The notes beneath the pieces were generated by a model. That model had not been told where the DNA came from, ran no database searches, and worked only from the letters and a program-made list of their open reading frames with translations. Positions 3,930-16,130 of a DNA stretch of 64,000 nt are shown here, piece by piece. The translations under genes were made by a program, and so were the position numbers. The first letter of the stretch is position 1. Every line of letters starts with the position of its first letter. The DNA comes from Clostridium sp. DSM 17811 (lineage in GTDB: Bacteria; Bacillota; Clostridia; Clostridiales; Clostridiaceae), in contig NZ_JAHLDU010000007.1 of the NCBI RefSeq assembly GCF_018861905.1, positions 62,001-126,000 on the forward strand, given 5' to 3'.

Positions 3930-3959
3930 GAGCTACATCGGTTGATGTGGCTCTTTTTT
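3930..3959 (+). terminator. Intrinsic terminator after the amidase-like gene
   Basis: Stem GAGCTACATC / GATGTGGCTC with a GGTT loop, followed by six T. Confidence 0.85.
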
Positions 3960-4030: not shown

Positions 4031-4082
4031 AATGATTATAAATATATTGCTTGATACTATTGTGATAAAATGATTATAAATA
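4031..4082 (+). promoter_or_regulatory. Promoter with 14-bp direct repeats ahead of the helicase/nuclease cassette
   Basis: TTGATA (4051-4056) and TATAAA (4075-4080) are 18 bp apart. The sequence AATGATTATAAATA occurs at 4031-4044 and again at 4069-4082, exactly 38 bp apart, so that it brackets the -35 and overlaps the -10. This could be a binding site for a repressor. A start site near 4087 rules out an upstream ATG at 4070 as the translation start. Confidence 0.5.
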
Positions 4083-4120
4083 AAAATCATAAAAATAATG
4101 GAACACATGGAGTTGATATT

Positions 4121-6202
4121 ATGAACTATACAGAGGCTCAAGATAAATTGAATGAAGATAAATTTAGCCACAAATGTATTTTAATTAAAGGGAATTCGGC
4201 AAGTGGCAAAACAACTCTTGCAACTACTAAATACAAGAATCTTATAGAAAATGAAAACATTAAAAGTTCAAATATATTATGTTTATTTATGAATAAATAT
4301 CAAAATATAACATGGACCAAAGAGATGATTTTTAATACTTCTGGTGAGATTAGAAAAAGCTCTTATTATGGATTTATTAGGAGAGAACTATCCCTTTATT
4401 GGCCTTATGTAGTAGAGGGGTGCACGGAAATAAAAATTAATATATTAAAGCCTGAGTTTGCATCTTTTGATGCTACCAATTATGCTATGAAAGCCTTAGT
4501 AGAACATTTTAGAAAAGCTAAAGGATATTTTCAAGATATAACATCAACCTCTTCAAAAATAGCATCAGATTTAATTTCTAACATTAATAATGCTGCGCTG
4601 TCATTAGTGCCTTTCAATGAAATAGGAACTAGGCTTTATAATTCATTAGAGGTAAATGATTTCTTAATTAAAGAAACATATAATCAATTAGACGAAGTAA
4701 CTATGTATTATATTTCAAAATTACTCTGTAATGGTGTTGTAGATTATGGACTATCATTTTATTTATATAATAATTACTTACTTCATGATCCAAGATATAA
4801 TAGTATAAATAATATAAAATATCTTATAGTAGACGATATAGATGAATCATCCCCTGCAGAGCAAGAATTGATATTTAAGATTATTAGTAATGTAGACAGG
4901 GCATATTTGTTTTATAATCCTAAAGGGGGTTTGTGTAGTTACTATGGAGCCAATACTGATTATTTGAAGAGTAAATTAACTATAAAGCATCACGAGATTA
5001 TTTTAGATGATCATTTTTGCTGTAATGATGATTTTATTAATCTTTCTAGGATAATAGATAACAGGGCTCACAATCTCTTTATGGAGGATAAAATAAATGA
5101 AGATGTGCCAGCCTTTATAGATATGACATCACAACTAAGATCGGAAATGGTCCAAAAGATAATGTTAAAAGTTGAAGAACTCTTAAATCAGGGACTTAAA
5201 CCAAGGGATATAGCAATAATATGTCCATTTAATGATTTTATTGTTTCTTATGAGCTTTTGAAAAAAGCTAAGGAATTAAATATATCAGTTATGGAGACTT
5301 CTAAAAAGGATAGGTTTATAGATAATGAATATTTACACCCTTTAATAGTACTCGCGGTATTGTGTAATGATTATAAAAGTATCTCTTTAACAAAGGAAGA
5401 TTATAAAAACTTTTTCTCATTTATGCTAAAGCTAGATGTTATTCGAGGGTCTTTGCTATATTCTTTTGTAACTGAAAGTGGCCTGCAAGACATTAGTCCC
5501 GATATTGAAGATAGAGTGGGCATCGAGGCAGTAGGTAAATATAATGAGTTAAAAGAGTGGATAGAAAATTATAAAGTTAATTTAATAGATCACAGGGGCT
5601 CCCTTGGCGAATTTTTCAGAAAAGCCTTTTCAGAAGTTCTTATAAGGTTGCCAAAAGTTAAAGAACATATAGAGGACTATATAGGTTTATATGAAAGCTG
5701 CGAAGGCTTCATAAATACTTTAGATAAATTAGAGTTTAAAGGGAAATCTTCAGAGGAGAGGTTTATAGAATTTATTAGGGGACAGGGAAGTGGATTTTAC
5801 AACATGAATGAGATTCAGGAAATGTTATTACAAGATAATAGTATAGTCTTAACATCTCCTTATACTTATTTGACATCTAATTTAAGCAGTAAGGTTCAGA
5901 TATGGACGGATATTAATAGCAATATGTGGTCTCCTAGAAATGTAGGGGAATTATCAAATTCTTATGTATTAAAGAGTAATCGAAATAGTGATGACATGTA
6001 TACTGAAAGAGAAGAAAATAATAATGTTTATGGAATTCTAATGTCTGTGGTTAATTGTTTATTAAGAAAATGTAGAGGTGAATTATACATATATGGTAGT
6101 GAATATTCTCTAAGTGGATTTGAGCAAGAAAGTAAATTTGCAGATATTCTTATAGAAATATTAAGTGAAAGAGGTGAAAGCATTGATAAAGGAGATAAAT
6201 GA
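4121..6202 (+). CDS. Degenerate SF1-helicase-like ATPase (AddB/RecC-like role proposed)
   Basis: A 693-residue soluble protein. The ATG at 4121 is preferred over one 51 bases upstream because GGAG sits 8 bases before it and the predicted promoter lies between the two. A good Walker A, GNSASGKT, is at 24-31. The Walker B/DExx region reads VDDIDESSPAEQ (237-248) in place of the helicase VDEAQD, and the usual GDxxQSIY motif is replaced by YNPKGGLCSYYGAN, keeping only the GA. A C-terminal SPYTYL-type motif near 585 recalls the motif after which UvrD-like proteins recognise their partner. It thus looks like a helicase-fold protein that keeps nucleotide binding but has weakened motor motifs, as AddB and RecC have. 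It overlaps the next gene by 20 bases and is the first of three coupled genes. No nuclease domain is present here. The function assignment is an inference. Confidence 0.75.
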   Translation: MNYTEAQDKLNEDKFSHKCILIKGNSASGKTTLATTKYKNLIENENIKSSNILCLFMNKYQNITWTKEMIFNTSGEIRKSSYYGFIRRELSLYWPYVVEGCTEIKINILKPEFASFDATNYAMKALVEHFRKAKGYFQDITSTSSKIASDLISNINNAALSLVPFNEIGTRLYNSLEVNDFLIKETYNQLDEVTMYYISKLLCNGVVDYGLSFYLYNNYLLHDPRYNSINNIKYLIVDDIDESSPAEQELIFKIISNVDRAYLFYNPKGGLCSYYGANTDYLKSKLTIKHHEIILDDHFCCNDDFINLSRIIDNRAHNLFMEDKINEDVPAFIDMTSQLRSEMVQKIMLKVEELLNQGLKPRDIAIICPFNDFIVSYELLKKAKELNISVMETSKKDRFIDNEYLHPLIVLAVLCNDYKSISLTKEDYKNFFSFMLKLDVIRGSLLYSFVTESGLQDISPDIEDRVGIEAVGKYNELKEWIENYKVNLIDHRGSLGEFFRKAFSEVLIRLPKVKEHIEDYIGLYESCEGFINTLDKLEFKGKSSEERFIEFIRGQGSGFYNMNEIQEMLLQDNSIVLTSPYTYLTSNLSSKVQIWTDINSNMWSPRNVGELSNSYVLKSNRNSDDMYTEREENNNVYGILMSVVNCLLRKCRGELYIYGSEYSLSGFEQESKFADILIEILSERGESIDKGDK

Positions 6203-8396
6203 TGAAGTTAAAAAAATTGTTTATAGGGAGGACCAGTTGCCTATAATGTTGTATCGAGGAGGAACTATGGCAGTGCCAGCAGTTCCAGGTGCAGGAAAGA
6301 CTTTCATAATATGTAATCTAGTATGTGAAATTATAAAGGATAAGGTCCATAAACCTGGTAAAATACTTATAGTAACTTTTATGAATAGTGCAGTTAACAA
6401 CTTTAAACATAGAATCTCTATGGTGTTACAAAATAAGGGAATAAACGCAAGTAATGATTATGAAGTCATGACTATCCATAGTTTAGCACTGAAAATCTTA
6501 AAAGATAGACCAGATGTAATGGGTGTTAATGAAGAATTTAAAATATTGGATGATGTTAATAAAAGTTTATATTTAAATAATTGCATATCAATGTGGCGAA
6601 GGAAGGGCGGAGAATTCACATTTAAGAAGATGATATCGGATAAATCCTTAAATAAATACGGTGGGAAACAAGATAAGTGGTGGAATGATTTTTTTACAAC
6701 AGTTGATACAACTATTGGTGAATTAAAGATAAATGACATTTCTGCTGAAAAATTAAAAGAAGATATAAAATCATTAGATCAAAATAGTATCTTAGTACAT
6801 ATATCTGAAATTTATGATACTTACAGTAAAATTTTAAAAAGTGAGGGGTATATAGATTATAATGATTTGCTAATTCTTGCGTATAAACTTTTAAAAACTG
6901 ATGACACAGTTAGGGAAAAGGTGCAAAAAAAATATACATTTGTCTTTGAGGATGAATGCCAAGACTCTAATTTAATTCAAGGAAAAATACTAAGTTTAAT
7001 TTCAGAGAAAAGTGGTAATTTAGTAAGAGTTGGGGATGTTAATCAAAGTATAACAGGAACATTTACAGCGTCTGACCCTGAATATTTTAGGGAGTTTTGT
7101 GGCAAGGCAAATAATGCATTCAAAATGTTTATGGCGGGGCGTAGTACAAATCATATTATTGATTTAGCAAATGAACTAGTTGAGTTTACAAACAATAAGC
7201 ATGGAGAAGAAAAGTGTAGAAATGCATTAGTAGATCAAAGAATTAAAAGTTTAGATGATAAAATTGAAACCTGCAAGGATAACTATGGTATAAGCACTAT
7301 GATTTGTAATTCAAGAGAAGATGAAACTAAAAAAGCAGTTCGCGTGGCTATGAAATTTAAAGAAAAATTTCCTGGGAAAACCTGTGCAATATTAGTTCCT
7401 TTTAATAATCAAGTTAGAGAAATAGCAGATATTCTTAGAGCTTCTAATATCGAATGTGATGAGTTATCAAATAAATCAGATAAAAAAATTAAAGTTACGA
7501 GTACATTAGGATATATACTGCAATTTATTTCAAGACCACAAGATAGTGTTTTATTTAAAGATTTAATTAAGAATGTTTTCTGCGAGGAACAAAATGAAAA
7601 AAGTGAAAAATTATTCCATTTTATTTGTGGTTATGATGTTGAAAAGCTGATGTACCCAAGTTGCGGCAAAATAAATGAACTGGATATTCCAGGAGAAATA
7701 TTAAACTCTAAGGTGTATAAACAATTTATTAGTTCTATGGATTTAATTAAAACAATATTTGAATATCCTCAGACACATTTTGATAGATTAATTTTATATA
7801 TTAGCGATGTTCTAAATTTTACGCTTGAAAACAAAGCAATGGCAGAGGCAGTTGCGTCTTATGTTAGATTTGCGTCTATTGATAATAGTGGATTTTCATT
7901 AGCGTTTGTAGCAGAGCAATTGCTAGATGGAAAGAATGGAATACTTGATCATATCTCAGGTATAATATACGACTTAGAGGGGTATGAACCATCCCCTGAT
8001 AGAGTAACAATATCAACTTGTCATAAAGCTAAAGGGCTAGAATGGGATTGTGTACTAATATTAAATATTACATCTTATCAGTATCCTTATATGACAAATG
8101 ATAAATTTAAAGACTATTATTATTTGAAAGATGAATTTAAAAGCCCAACAGTTCTTTGCAGGGCCGAAATTGCTAAAATTTTAGGTAATAATATTTGTGA
8201 AGATCCATTAAAGGAAGCTAAAATACAAATAATAAATGAAAAAATAAGACTTTTATATGTAGGGATAACAAGGGCTAAGGAATATTTAATCTTAATGGCA
8301 ACCCGATCTAATGAAGGAAAATGGAATGAAGATAAACCATCAAAGTATTTTTATGTTCTTCAAGATTACATAAATAGTCAAAGGGGTGTTTTATAA
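6183..8396 (+). CDS. UvrD/AddA-type ATP-dependent DNA helicase (SF1A)
   Basis: A 737-residue helicase with most classical SF1A motifs: Q motif YREDQ (14-18), Walker A AVPGAGKT (33-40), motif Ia VTFMNSAVNNF, DECQD near 256 (usual DEAQD), GDVNQSITG near 283, HKAKGLEWD near 615 (motif V region) and LLYVGITRAKEYL near 695 (motif VI). It lacks the C-terminal nuclease domain of AddA. A TTG start at 6183 is chosen because AGAGGTG lies 6 bases upstream; a GTG at 6165 is possible but its SD would be poor. Either start overlaps the upstream gene, implying translational coupling, and the nuclease gene begins at the base after its stop codon. It is likely the motor of a three-protein DNA-end-processing complex (inference). 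Confidence 0.85.
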   Translation: MIKEINDEVKKIVYREDQLPIMLYRGGTMAVPAVPGAGKTFIICNLVCEIIKDKVHKPGKILIVTFMNSAVNNFKHRISMVLQNKGINASNDYEVMTIHSLALKILKDRPDVMGVNEEFKILDDVNKSLYLNNCISMWRRKGGEFTFKKMISDKSLNKYGGKQDKWWNDFFTTVDTTIGELKINDISAEKLKEDIKSLDQNSILVHISEIYDTYSKILKSEGYIDYNDLLILAYKLLKTDDTVREKVQKKYTFVFEDECQDSNLIQGKILSLISEKSGNLVRVGDVNQSITGTFTASDPEYFREFCGKANNAFKMFMAGRSTNHIIDLANELVEFTNNKHGEEKCRNALVDQRIKSLDDKIETCKDNYGISTMICNSREDETKKAVRVAMKFKEKFPGKTCAILVPFNNQVREIADILRASNIECDELSNKSDKKIKVTSTLGYILQFISRPQDSVLFKDLIKNVFCEEQNEKSEKLFHFICGYDVEKLMYPSCGKINELDIPGEILNSKVYKQFISSMDLIKTIFEYPQTHFDRLILYISDVLNFTLENKAMAEAVASYVRFASIDNSGFSLAFVAEQLLDGKNGILDHISGIIYDLEGYEPSPDRVTISTCHKAKGLEWDCVLILNITSYQYPYMTNDKFKDYYYLKDEFKSPTVLCRAEIAKILGNNICEDPLKEAKIQIINEKIRLLYVGITRAKEYLILMATRSNEGKWNEDKPSKYFYVLQDYINSQRGVL

Positions 8397-9137
8397 ATGT
8401 TGGACATTAGAAAATTAAATCATGTCTATTATAGTCAAAATCTTTTAAATACTTTTGATAAATGTCCTCTTAAATTTAAAATAAAATATTTGGATAATAT
8501 TAGATGGAAAAAAGATTCAATAGATGATGAGGATTATTATGAGAATATGAACATGGGACTGGATTTTCATCTCATAGCTCAAAGATATTTTTCAAATATT
8601 ACTTTGGTTATAAATGAGAGTAATACTGAATTACTCCACTTTACAAAGTCGCTTCGAGAAAAATTTACTATTATAGATGAGAATATATATTTGCCAGAGT
8701 ATGAAATTAAAATGAGAAAAGATAATATTAGGATTCAAGCGAAGTATGATTTAATAATTATTAAGCCAAATAATAAAATAGAAATATGGGACTGGAAGAC
8801 AGAAAATAGGAAGCTCGATTATAGTGAAGTAAGTAAAAGAATGCAAGCTATTGTTTATATGTATATAGTAGGAGAAAGGTCCTTAGAAATATTTGATAGA
8901 GAGATACCATTTGAAAATATAAGCATGAGTTTTTGGCAACCTCAGTTTAAAGAGGATATCATCACTATTAATTATTCAAAGAGTAAGCATAAAGTATATG
9001 AAGAAAAAATTATAGATATAATACGCAGGCTTACTAATTATGATTTTAGTTTAGATTTCAATATTGAATTGTATAGAAAAATGTGTAAGTATTGCGAATT
9101 CGCAGGGGATACTCAGGCATGTGATGCTTTTGTTTAG
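8397..9137 (+). CDS. Stand-alone PD-(D/E)XK nuclease with Fe-S cysteines (Cas4/AddB C-terminal type)
   Basis: A 246-residue protein built like the AddB/Cas4 nuclease domain: an N-terminal SQNLLNTFDKCPLKF with Cys23, a GLDFH motif supplying the His of the RecB nuclease motif I, EYEIK, AKYDLI, then IEIWDWKTE giving the D...D-x-K metal site, and three C-terminal cysteines (230, 233, 242). Cys23 plus these three is the arrangement that holds a 4Fe-4S cluster in AddB and Cas4; the last spacing, x8, is wide. ATG directly follows the helicase stop codon with AGGGGTG about 9 bases upstream. There are no cas genes nearby, so a Cas4 role is unlikely. It should supply the nuclease missing from the two preceding proteins. 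Confidence 0.85.
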   Translation: MLDIRKLNHVYYSQNLLNTFDKCPLKFKIKYLDNIRWKKDSIDDEDYYENMNMGLDFHLIAQRYFSNITLVINESNTELLHFTKSLREKFTIIDENIYLPEYEIKMRKDNIRIQAKYDLIIIKPNNKIEIWDWKTENRKLDYSEVSKRMQAIVYMYIVGERSLEIFDREIPFENISMSFWQPQFKEDIITINYSKSKHKVYEEKIIDIIRRLTNYDFSLDFNIELYRKMCKYCEFAGDTQACDAFV

Positions 9138-9310
9138 TGCTTCATAAATGTGGATGTGTAAGTATGAAATATTAAAATAGAGTCAAACATATTGTTAAGT
9201 GGATTAAAGAAATATTGTAATATTTTATAATATAAAGATTTTAGTGTATTATCTTATAATAGACATAATATTATTATTAAATTTAAGAAAAAGAAATGGA
9301 GAGATATGAT

Positions 9311-11272
9311 TTGAAAGGTAAATGTTATTACTGCAACGAGAAATTATCAGAAAGAACCGTTAAAAAACATGTTAAAGGCTGTAAAGTTAGGAAAGAAAAG
9401 ATAGGAGAGTCTATCGCGAGTTCTAAAAAAACTAAGAGTCAATATATTTTGTCTATACTTCCACAGTATGGATCAAAAGAGTATAGTTTGTATATAGCTA
9501 TAGATATAGATTTAACTTTAAAGAATCTGGATAGTTTTTTAAGAAATATTTGGTTAGAATGTTGTGGACACTTAAGTAGTTTTATTATTGATGACATAAA
9601 CTATGACTCTTCAATAGAAGATGAATTTGAACTTTTTCCTCAAACTGAAACAATGGATTTTAAATTAAGACAGGTGATTTCTGTAGGTGATAAATTTAAA
9701 TATGACTATGATTTTGGTTCTACTACTGCATTAAAACTTGAAGTTATAGATGAGTATGTGGTAGGGGAGAAGTATAGTCAAATAGAAATATTAACTAGAA
9801 ATGATGAAATACAAAATTTTTGTGCGAATTGTAATCAAAAGGCAAAGTATTTTGATTATGAAGAAGAAAAGTATTTTTGTAAAGATTGTGTAGATGAAGA
9901 CGCTGATATGGTAGGTGAATTTGAATATAGAAATTCACCTAGGGATGGAGTTTGTGGATATGCAGGAGAAAGAGATACGGAAAAGCAGTACTTGCCAGGA
10001 AATAAATTTAAGTTTAAGAAAACTAAAATAAAAGGGCGAAAGGATATAGTTCCATTTATAGAGGATGATGAATTCAATGTAGATGATTTTAAAGGGGACT
10101 TTGAATCTCTTTTGGATATTGCAATGGATGATATGAATTCAGAAGTTGGATATAAAGCAAAAAAATTATTGAATAGATTAAAAAGAGGGAAGTTTACACA
10201 TAATTTAAGAGAATTATTAGAATGTGATACAAAAGATGAATTATTAAAAACAACATATATGCTAAATATTACGAGGGTATCTAAGTTTAATAAAGGCCAA
10301 CTAATAGAAAAACTTTTAGAGGTATATGAAGAGAAAATAAAAAAGGCACTATATTCAATTGATAGTGAAAGATATGAATTTTTAAAAAGAATAATGGAAA
10401 ACCAGGGATATATATCTTTTGAAGATGATAAGTTCACATCAAATCCAGAATATTTTTTAGAATGTGGATTTGTTTTTGCAACGATGAGAGAAGATGGTAT
10501 ATATTTAATCATGCCAAATGAAACAATAAATGCTATAAAATCCATAGATAATGTGGAGTACAGAAAGATATTAGCTAAAAACACAGAAATAATAAAGTTG
10601 ATGTGGGGAATGACCTATAATTATGGAGTACTATTTATGAGTGATTTTATAAAGATGCTTAATAATTATATTGACTATTCTTTAGATGAAACTGATATTT
10701 ACGCAGTAATTGTAAGTGGTGCAGATTATTATGATGGGTATAGGCTGCAAGGGAATATAGCTAGTAGTATAATGGTTCCTCTAGAAGATACTATAAATAT
10801 TATTAATACAAGAGATAATATTTCAAGCGATAGGGATTTCTGTATTATAGAAAAGGCTGAGCTACTTGAAGCCGCTAATGAGGAATATTTAATTGAAAAT
10901 AAAATAACCATGAGATTAAAAAAGTATTTAGAGAATAATTGGGAAATAGAAGAAACACAAATTGAAATGATTATAATTAATTTATATGATGATATTCAAG
11001 AAAATGAAAAAGAAGAGGTAGTAGATAACATCATAAGTGCATTGGGAGATATAAGTGAAAAGGATCTTCAAAAACTTTTAGTAGAAATAAATAGTTTTAT
11101 AAATAACACTAGACTTTGGAGACTAAAAGGATATACTTTTAATGAATTAAATTCAGAAGATAATAATAATAATAATTCTACTCCTAAGATAGGAAGAAAT
11201 GATCTTTGTATTTGTGGAAGCGGTAAAAAATATAAAAAATGTTGTGGATCTAAGGTTATTCAGTTATTTTAA
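9311..11272 (+). CDS. Multi-zinc-finger protein with pRiA4b ORF-3-like and SEC-C domains
   Basis: The start is set to TTG at 9311, because GGAGAG ends 7 bases before it; the ATG at 9296 has no SD and would overlap this one. The 653 residues comprise an N-terminal C2HC finger (Cys5, Cys8, His20, Cys24); a region around 30-150 ending in YDYDFGSTTALKLEV, the signature of the plasmid pRiA4b ORF-3 family (related to the IS1096 passenger protein TnpR); a second C4 ribbon at about 171-193; a SAP/Rho-N-like stretch near 305-345; a long helical part; a run of Asn; and a C-terminal SEC-C motif RNDLCICGSGKKYKKCC (about 627-645). SEC-C motifs bind zinc and mediate protein contacts. It lies 173 bases after the nuclease gene and may have its own promoter in the AT-rich gap. 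Molecular function unknown; a nucleic-acid-linked adaptor is only a guess. Confidence 0.75.
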   Translation: MKGKCYYCNEKLSERTVKKHVKGCKVRKEKIGESIASSKKTKSQYILSILPQYGSKEYSLYIAIDIDLTLKNLDSFLRNIWLECCGHLSSFIIDDINYDSSIEDEFELFPQTETMDFKLRQVISVGDKFKYDYDFGSTTALKLEVIDEYVVGEKYSQIEILTRNDEIQNFCANCNQKAKYFDYEEEKYFCKDCVDEDADMVGEFEYRNSPRDGVCGYAGERDTEKQYLPGNKFKFKKTKIKGRKDIVPFIEDDEFNVDDFKGDFESLLDIAMDDMNSEVGYKAKKLLNRLKRGKFTHNLRELLECDTKDELLKTTYMLNITRVSKFNKGQLIEKLLEVYEEKIKKALYSIDSERYEFLKRIMENQGYISFEDDKFTSNPEYFLECGFVFATMREDGIYLIMPNETINAIKSIDNVEYRKILAKNTEIIKLMWGMTYNYGVLFMSDFIKMLNNYIDYSLDETDIYAVIVSGADYYDGYRLQGNIASSIMVPLEDTINIINTRDNISSDRDFCIIEKAELLEAANEEYLIENKITMRLKKYLENNWEIEETQIEMIIINLYDDIQENEKEEVVDNIISALGDISEKDLQKLLVEINSFINNTRLWRLKGYTFNELNSEDNNNNNSTPKIGRNDLCICGSGKKYKKCCGSKVIQLF

Positions 11273-15816: not shown

Positions 15817-16090
15817 AAAAAAAAGCCCTCATCCTATAAAAAATAGGACGAAAGACTTATACTTCCGCGGTACCACCTAAATTAGCTTAAAAAGCTCACT
15901 TTAATCAGTACGGAATTAATATAAATTCGATACTGTCCAAGATGTAACGGTTTGGCTCCGTCCAATACTACTCTTAATAAATTTCGTTTGGAAGCTCCGG
16001 GATGTTCTTCACCATTTGATTAGTATCAGTCTCTCACCACCACTGATTCGCTTTGACTATTTCATAATAACTACTCTTCCCATCAAGGCT
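15817..16090 (-). promoter_or_regulatory. T-box riboswitch (tRNA-Asn sensing) controlling asnB
   Basis: In minus-strand orientation the leader contains a Stem I base starting GGGAAGAGTAGT (a loop-E/AGUA-like sequence), the specifier region GAAGAACATCCC with codon AAC (16006-16004), the T-box core AGGTGGTACCGCGG (15878-15865) and a terminator whose stem (about 15857-15825) is followed by eight T. GGTACC of the T-box is the element that can pair with the tRNA NCCA end. AAC encodes asparagine, matching the downstream gene. When tRNA-Asn is uncharged the antiterminator should form and asnB be read through. The limits of Stems II and III were not resolved. Confidence 0.92.
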
Positions 16091-16130
16091 TTTATATTGA
16101 TTATATGAATTTTGTTTTTGAATTCCTTTC

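Follow-up and report, generated by a model that had tools for sequence, protein, structure and literature searches.

Bacterial machines that resect DNA ends have been described as RecBCD, AddAB and AdnAB types. Of the two nucleases of AddAB, that of AddA degrades the 3'-ended strand before Chi and that of AddB the 5'-ended strand, and both AddB and RecC carry inactivated helicase domains that bind Chi (PMC4824097). RecJ is a 5'-3' exonuclease (PMC5101192). The 2017 Cas4 survey of Hudaiberdiev et al. presents a predicted operon, found mostly in Clostridiales, in which uvrD and a Cas4-like gene are unfused, and suggests a function in repair (PMC5704561). Here we describe a cassette of three genes, g1, g2 and g3, located in a stretch of 64,000 nucleotides from Clostridium sp. 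DSM 17811 (contig NZ_JAHLDU010000007.1, positions 62,001 to 126,000), which is called the window. The operon is proposed, with a probability of about 0.55, to encode a putative heteromeric helicase-nuclease that resects DNA ends. Its genes are the following:

4121..6202, plus strand: g1, UvrD-fold pseudo-helicase of 693 amino acids (aa), which keeps Walker A and has lost motifs II, III and VI
6183..8396, plus strand: g2, intact SF1A (UvrD/PcrA/AddA-like) helicase of 737 aa, without a nuclease domain
8397..9137, plus strand: g3, stand-alone PD-(D/E)XK nuclease (Pfam PDDEXK_1) of 246 aa, with four invariant cysteines, of AddB/Cas4 type

The three proteins of the cassette

The three open reading frames lie on one strand and overlap or abut, so the tight coupling described in the original prediction, which was made from the letters of the window, is present. 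The predicted overlap of 20 bases between g1 and g2 follows from a g2 start at TTG 6183, which is preceded by AGAGGTG; the longest reading of g2 begins at GTG 6165, and the sister loci of the genus mostly have TTG at the start (L025 has ATG), in agreement with the TTG start and the overlap in the window. The stop codon of g2 (8394-8396) directly abuts the ATG of g3 at 8397, also as predicted. The predicted beginning at 4031 had to be corrected, because the g1 frame opens only at 4055; ATG 4121 is preferred, which has GGAG upstream and lies about where conservation begins, and ATG 4070 is the alternative. In some Clostridium species (loci L018, L021 and L009), a 21-base-pair tandem repeat at the g1/g2 junction lengthens the N-terminus of g2 by STATKSM-like repeats, an array that was measured in L021 only (L021:11901-11967).

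The motor protein g2 matches the UvrD-helicase model at 1.3e-44 and keeps, by pattern search, DExQD and GDxxQ in 66/66 proteins each, Walker A in 64/66 and motif VI in 60/66. No nuclease model matched g2 and the protein ends about 40 aa past motif VI, which makes it the full UvrD-type motor without nuclease that had been expected. Its profile is nearer to AddA than to AddB, and its scores are 149.6 bits for PcrA, 148 for Rep and 124.5 for AddA. One genome stands twice in the residue counts of g3 and in the g1 counts of DExQD, GDxxQ and motif VI, as well as in the trees of g1, g2, g3 and RecJ, all given below (L129 repeats L087).

The nuclease g3 matches PDDEXK_1 at 9.7e-23, and residues C23, C230, C233, C242, H58, E101, D118, D132, K134, Q150 and Y154 are each conserved in 63/63 proteins. 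The conservation of the four cysteines, placed as the original prediction had said of AddB and Cas4, suggests that g3 holds an iron-sulfur (Fe-S) cluster. By profile comparison, g3 is nearest to a diverged AddB set (4.5e-9), in a match that spans the nuclease and the cysteine tail, followed by a mainly diverged AddA set (2.2e-5), canonical AddB (1.9e-4) and canonical AddA (0.026), so it is nearer to AddB than to AddA. The AlphaFold2 model of g3 has a predicted local distance difference test score (pLDDT) of 85.6 and a predicted template modelling score (pTM) of 0.83. Among solved structures, g3 is best matched by cyanobacterial ACE1 nucleases, followed by AdnA, RecE and others including AddB, and a viral structure library gives 153 matches at E <= 0.001, many of them to phage RecB-like nucleases. 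One locus has, about 5 kb from its intact cassette, a decayed duplicate of g3 together with the end of g2, with an internal gap (L023:1180-2000).

The degenerate helicase g1 reaches 19.2 bits against the UvrD-helicase model, under the cut-off of 23 bits. Pattern search finds Walker A in 57/68 full-length proteins, DExQD and motif VI in 0/67 each and GDxxQ in 1/67, and thus the predicted retention of Walker A and loss of DEAQD and GDxxQ hold across the family. All 11 full-length g1 proteins of the lineage linked to addBA lack Walker A (10 come from loci where addB was seen, and the eleventh is that of L145, closely related but on a contig that stops too early), and each of the remaining 57 has it; such a loss is expected of a structural subunit. 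In a Foldseek search with the AlphaFold2 model of g1 (pLDDT 84.9, pTM 0.83), UvrD comes first by E-value, and UvrD, Rep and PcrA match at template modelling (TM) scores of 0.52-0.59 with a root-mean-square deviation (rmsd) of 10.6-14.8 Å. AddB matches at TM 0.59-0.61 with a lower rmsd of 7.5-8.4 Å, AdnB at TM 0.55-0.66 and RecC at TM 0.52-0.54. As judged from the model, the fold of g1 fits an inactivated partner and singles out none, since AddB, AdnB and RecC all fit. By sequence profile, g1 is nearest to the AddA set (1e-13), then to g2 (1e-10) and then to diverged AddB (2.5e-7), and among solved structures its sequence matches PcrA at 2.8e-10. The AddB/RecC-like label given to g1 in the prediction therefore stands as regards a UvrD-fold pseudo-helicase, and kinship to AddB in particular is not supported, because the AddA and g2 profiles and PcrA score better.

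Distribution and recurrent partners

The window belongs to a 5.19-Mb assembly, and its g1 shares 84-92% identity with those of loci in Clostridium algoriphilum, frigoris, bowmanii and lacusfryxellense. Counting the genome of the window itself, g1 is present in 12/17 genomes of the genus, within 15/118 relatives searched, in 14/391 genomes of the class and in 28/398 of the phylum, a distribution that is patchy and broad. Outside the phylum, g1 was found on two plasmids, of Ilyobacter polytropus and of Salinibacter ruber (pSR56); the latter carries g1-g2-g3-recJ, with g1 at 21% identity, and is also the only plasmid record matched by g3 at 1e-3. No match of g1 was found in phage records and none was confirmed by pattern search in viral contigs, on which ground a phage origin of the cassette is rejected.

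Conserved order of the three genes across genomes, on which the prediction depended, was found in 63/65 testable loci, from Clostridium to the Salinibacter plasmid; as the loci were found through g1, this figure is the linkage given g1. Testable loci have at least 3.3 kb downstream and were taken from 73 distinct g1 loci, left after 12 repeats of genomes were dropped; eight loci cut by contig ends, among them the fragment L120, were set aside. The script found g2 on the same strand and in order in 61/65 loci and g3 in 62/65. L116 and L119, which fail its distance rule alone because of long overlapping frames, have g1, g2 and g3 in order and were counted as kept. Tree distances of g1, g2 and g3 correlate with r of 0.93, 0.89 and 0.95 over 59 loci (shuffles gave at most 0.17), and the trees show one or two conflicts among 30-40 supported splits. 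The three proteins could also be independent enzymes that are co-transcribed as a repair regulon and form no stable complex, which would agree with recJ, addBA or neither coming next and with the two loci where g1 is alone. This is very improbable, considering the near-invariable order of genes that overlap or abut and a g1 that, with its helicase motifs lost, has no obvious activity of its own.

The gene that follows g1-g2-g3 is recJ in 34/58 loci, addB in 11/58 and neither in 13/58, a group that includes the window; the 58 loci are those with g1-g2-g3 and 5 kb downstream. The recJ or addB gene mostly overlaps g3 or lies within tens of bases of it, and in two loci a small reading frame lies between. 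Clustering of neighbouring genes over 72 loci gives recJ as the sole widely recurring gene and addB-addA as recurring in one lineage, while an ABC-transporter ATPase family near the cassette in 14/72 loci is a large generic family. The linked RecJ proteins, including that of Salinibacter, form one clade with support 1.0, which contains 35 linked proteins (from 34 genomes) and 0/30 unlinked ones, and their distances track those of g2 with r 0.94 (32 loci). Another RecJ is encoded elsewhere in 25/31 genomes with a linked recJ (two of them in pieces), and two full-length RecJ proteins are found in 0/26 genomes without the cassette. The clade, the distances and the second RecJ elsewhere indicate that the linked RecJ is part of the system. 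The genome of the window has one full-length RecJ (a frame of 592 aa) and a partial match of 295 aa, so a RecJ of the linked type is absent there. An additional RecJ-like frame that is not linked to the cassette, 508-549 aa long, is present in three Clostridium cassette genomes (G005, G014 and G016).

The linkage to RecJ could also mean that g2, RecJ and g3 trim stalled forks or lagging-strand gaps, in a RecQ/RecJ-like manner, and not double-strand ends. The somewhat higher scores of g2 for PcrA and Rep than for AddA, as given above, fit such processing, and a UvrD-like motor can act at forks. It is nevertheless improbable, as it leaves unexplained the direct linkage to addBA in 11 loci and the AddB-type nuclease. 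These 11 loci belong to Romboutsia, Asaccharospora, Terrisporobacter, Metaclostridioides and Intestinibacter (two Intestinibacter bartlettii strains) and to two further genomes.

Canonical addAB elsewhere in the genome was a question that the prediction had raised; in the genome of the window both genes are present in full at another place (addA 1232 bits, addB 1286 bits), which makes the cassette an addition to them there. AddB (E <= 1e-30) was detected in 4/28 cassette genomes and in 236/370 others of the phylum sample (Fisher p 2.9e-7, a value that ignores kinship), a difference that overstates replacement because the AddB model misses diverged AddAB pairs. All 6/6 diverged loci that were fetched (L225-L230) have a long AddA-like frame beside a second frame, 820-1098 aa long and with a tail rich in cysteines, which is read from its sequence as AddB-like. 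TIGR02773 and TIGR02785 score these pairs below cut-off or miss them, and the AddB model saw 2/6.

Proposed end resection, its putative mechanism and the defence question

The recurrent partners recJ and addBA point to DNA-end resection. In the proposed mechanism, the three proteins would act as a single complex in recombination or repair, with g2 as the 3'-5' motor, in the role of AddA or RecB, and g1 as an inactivated helicase that would serve as scaffold and as channel for single-stranded DNA, in the role of AddB or RecC. The Fe-S nuclease g3 would be a separate subunit that cuts the 5'-ended strand, as AddB does. Because the cassette has no counterpart of the AddA nuclease, the degrader of the 3'-ended strand, the product would be a 3' overhang formed without need for a Chi switch. 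A RecJ paralogue of 5'-3' polarity, dedicated to the system in its four-gene form, would extend the removal of the 5' strand, and all predicted cutting would thus fall on this strand.

Several points weigh against end resection by such a complex. The active subunits AdnA and AddA match the g1 model in Foldseek at TM 0.60, the same as AddB, and the sequence of g1 is that of a degenerate SF1A protein of generic kind, without special kinship to AddB. Vertical descent alone is expected to give part of the correlation among the g1, g2 and g3 trees. Clostridium, the window included, has no linked RecJ. In G010 a stop closes the g2 frame shortly ahead of the contig end, which comes 174 bases after g1; its locus L138 is among the 12 dropped repeats and enters no linkage or next-gene count. 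A long AddA-like protein is present in 31/43 cassette genomes by the wider AddA model (this count includes G805, where the AddA-like gene is split over two adjacent frames). Finally, g1 has neither g2 nor g3 nearby in two loci:

L121:8010-9983: g1 of the Ilyobacter plasmid pILYOP01, without g2 or g3 nearby
L128:7980-10064: g1 of Herbivorax, without g2 or g3 nearby

The AddA-like proteins of these 31 genomes and the diverged AddB loci rule out the cassette as a simple substitute for AddAB. No long AddA-like protein was found in 12/43 cassette genomes, of which eight are at least 94% complete and four less than 90%, and 5/14 addB-negative controls without the cassette also show none. The RecC model matches in 0/45 cassette genomes and in 1/18 others. 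The cassette therefore coexists with AddAB in most genomes and may stand alone in some. The near-complete genomes G359, G409 and G517 show no AddA-, AddB- or RecC-like protein at the thresholds used. A tentative extension of the end-resection reading is that the cassette represents a further class beside RecBCD, AddAB and AdnAB, that is, a split single-nuclease complex with a dedicated RecJ, which would remain permanently in the post-Chi state of AddAB and would have no other machine of this sort beside it in some near-complete genomes, as in these three. If true, an operon that splits motor, pseudo-helicase and 5'-strand nuclease and has its own RecJ would show how such machines were assembled and would be a natural experiment on the role of the 3'-strand nuclease and of Chi. 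It could also explain break processing in some Clostridia without detectable AddAB, and would give a function to proteins annotated merely as hypothetical, helicase or PD-(D/E)XK nuclease.

The original prediction had offered an anti-phage or anti-plasmid complex beside DNA-end processing, and in such a defence the complex would degrade incoming DNA in a Gabija- or Cas4-like way. PADLOC models match g2 as GajB (best E 2.5e-48, although general UvrD models match too), g1 weakly as GajB (2.9e-6) and g3 as Aga_Cas4-like_Nuc (9.6e-7) and Cas4 (5.6e-6); these matches are generic or weak, no known three-gene system model fits, and none of the matches found for g1, g3 and the gene that follows is to a GajA model. 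In Synechococcus elongatus, natural transformation and the conjugation or maintenance of RSF1010 were helped by loss of each of six genes, which include those for a Cas4-like nuclease, UvrD and RecJcy (PMC10653904), the kinds of protein that g3, g2 and the linked RecJ are. The patchy spread in 28/398 and 14/391 genomes would also suit defence, as would single neighbours that match defence models, for instance GajB-like (L021), Mrr (L109), JetC-like and Cas12f-like ones. The recJ-carrying cassette of the Salinibacter plasmid has nearby an XRE-type regulator gene (L122:6918-8177) that matches the RmrA/CapP defence regulator models. Against defence, among 139 neighbouring proteins of 40 chosen loci, no PADLOC family among the 25 of 71 listed occurs in more than four, with no matched control loci, and none does among the first 25 listed of 210 mixed Pfam families. 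Cas1 and Cas2 are not among these 25 of 71 PADLOC families, nor are their genes among the neighbours in the window. On these counts, which have no matched control, a recurrent CRISPR or defence-island context is rejected. With recJ and addBA as the recurrent partners, and with g1 missing from phage records and, by pattern search, from viral contigs, defence is unlikely to be the function. A role in repair and one as a barrier could go together, since enzymes of the AddAB type also limit incoming DNA.

In the window, the cassette is surrounded by genes for an oxidoreductase, an acetyltransferase, an amidase, a SEC-C protein, an ABC transporter and an asparagine synthase. The SEC-C protein of 658 aa, which has a pRiA4 ORF3-like stretch, is encoded right after g3 (9296-11272, plus strand); as a member of the system it is ruled out, since just three of the 72 clustered loci have it, namely the window, L016 and L017. 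A T-box leader lies on the minus strand at 15841-16095 (Rfam RF00230, 132.6 bits). Upstream of g1 the following element was recognised by eye:

3930..3959, plus strand: probable intrinsic terminator of the upstream amidase gene, with a 10-base-pair stem, a GGTT loop and a T run

A pattern scan that covered 3930-3959 did not list this hairpin. As the hairpin probably ends the amidase gene, the operon probably has its own promoter.

Comparison with described systems

The cassette resembles AddAB (RexAB) in its AddA-like motor, its inactivated helicase partner and its AddB-type Fe-S nuclease, and it adjoins addBA in 11/58 loci. It differs from AddAB in being built of three polypeptides (693, 737 and 246 aa) with one nuclease instead of two. 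AddA has a C-terminal nuclease, which g2 lacks, and AddB fuses an inactivated helicase to the Fe-S nuclease, whereas here the two parts are encoded apart, by g1 and g3, and g2 lies between these genes. The family cut-offs are not reached, as g2 scores 124.5 bits against an AddA cut-off of 707.65, and g1 and g3 match no AddB model. RecBCD likewise combines a motor and a pseudo-helicase (the RecC role) with a single active nuclease, but in the cassette the nuclease is not fused to the motor, the operon has no second motor and the RecC model matches none of 45 cassette genomes; no recD adjoins the cassette here, the genomes themselves not having been searched for RecD. AdnAB shares the UvrD-like fold, and one AdnB chain gives the highest TM to g1 (0.66) among the 50 matches listed. 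A nuclease domain is present in both AdnA and AdnB, unlike in the motor and the pseudo-helicase of the cassette.

The ACE1 nucleases, which are Argonaute-associated Cas4 proteins (PDB 9iac and 9iab), are the best match of g3 among solved structures, both by sequence and by fold. They differ from g3 in having an Argonaute partner, and phage RecB-like nucleases match the g3 fold at lower E-values in the viral library. We know of no helicase operon for ACE1. The Cas4-like nuclease, UvrD and RecJcy of S. elongatus are proteins of the kinds of g3, g2 and the linked RecJ and share one phenotype in a transposon screen, a likeness by kind alone (PMC10653904); that Cas4 may instead be Argonaute-associated (ACE1-like). 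Gabija has GajA, an OLD nuclease, beside GajB, and CRISPR Cas4 has cas1/cas2 as neighbours, both of which differ from what is found at the cassette.

The operon of uvrD and a Cas4-like gene in the 2017 survey is very probably the g2 and g3 pair, which is likewise unfused here. The section of the survey on this operon names the pair alone, without g1, the RecJ clade or the addBA linkage (PMC5704561), and no description of these three was found in searches of the open-licence literature. New here is also that the pair, preceded by g1, is followed by recJ, addBA or neither. A UvrD motor with Cas4-like domains is further found in ZomB and in the UvrD-Cas4 fusions (PMC9453066, PMC5704561). ZomB is a single fused protein (UvrD-Cas4-Cas4) that is encoded on a mobile element and, as it is described, has no pseudo-helicase, in which it differs from the cassette; its ATP-dependent nuclease activity (PMC9453066) shows that such sets of domains work together.

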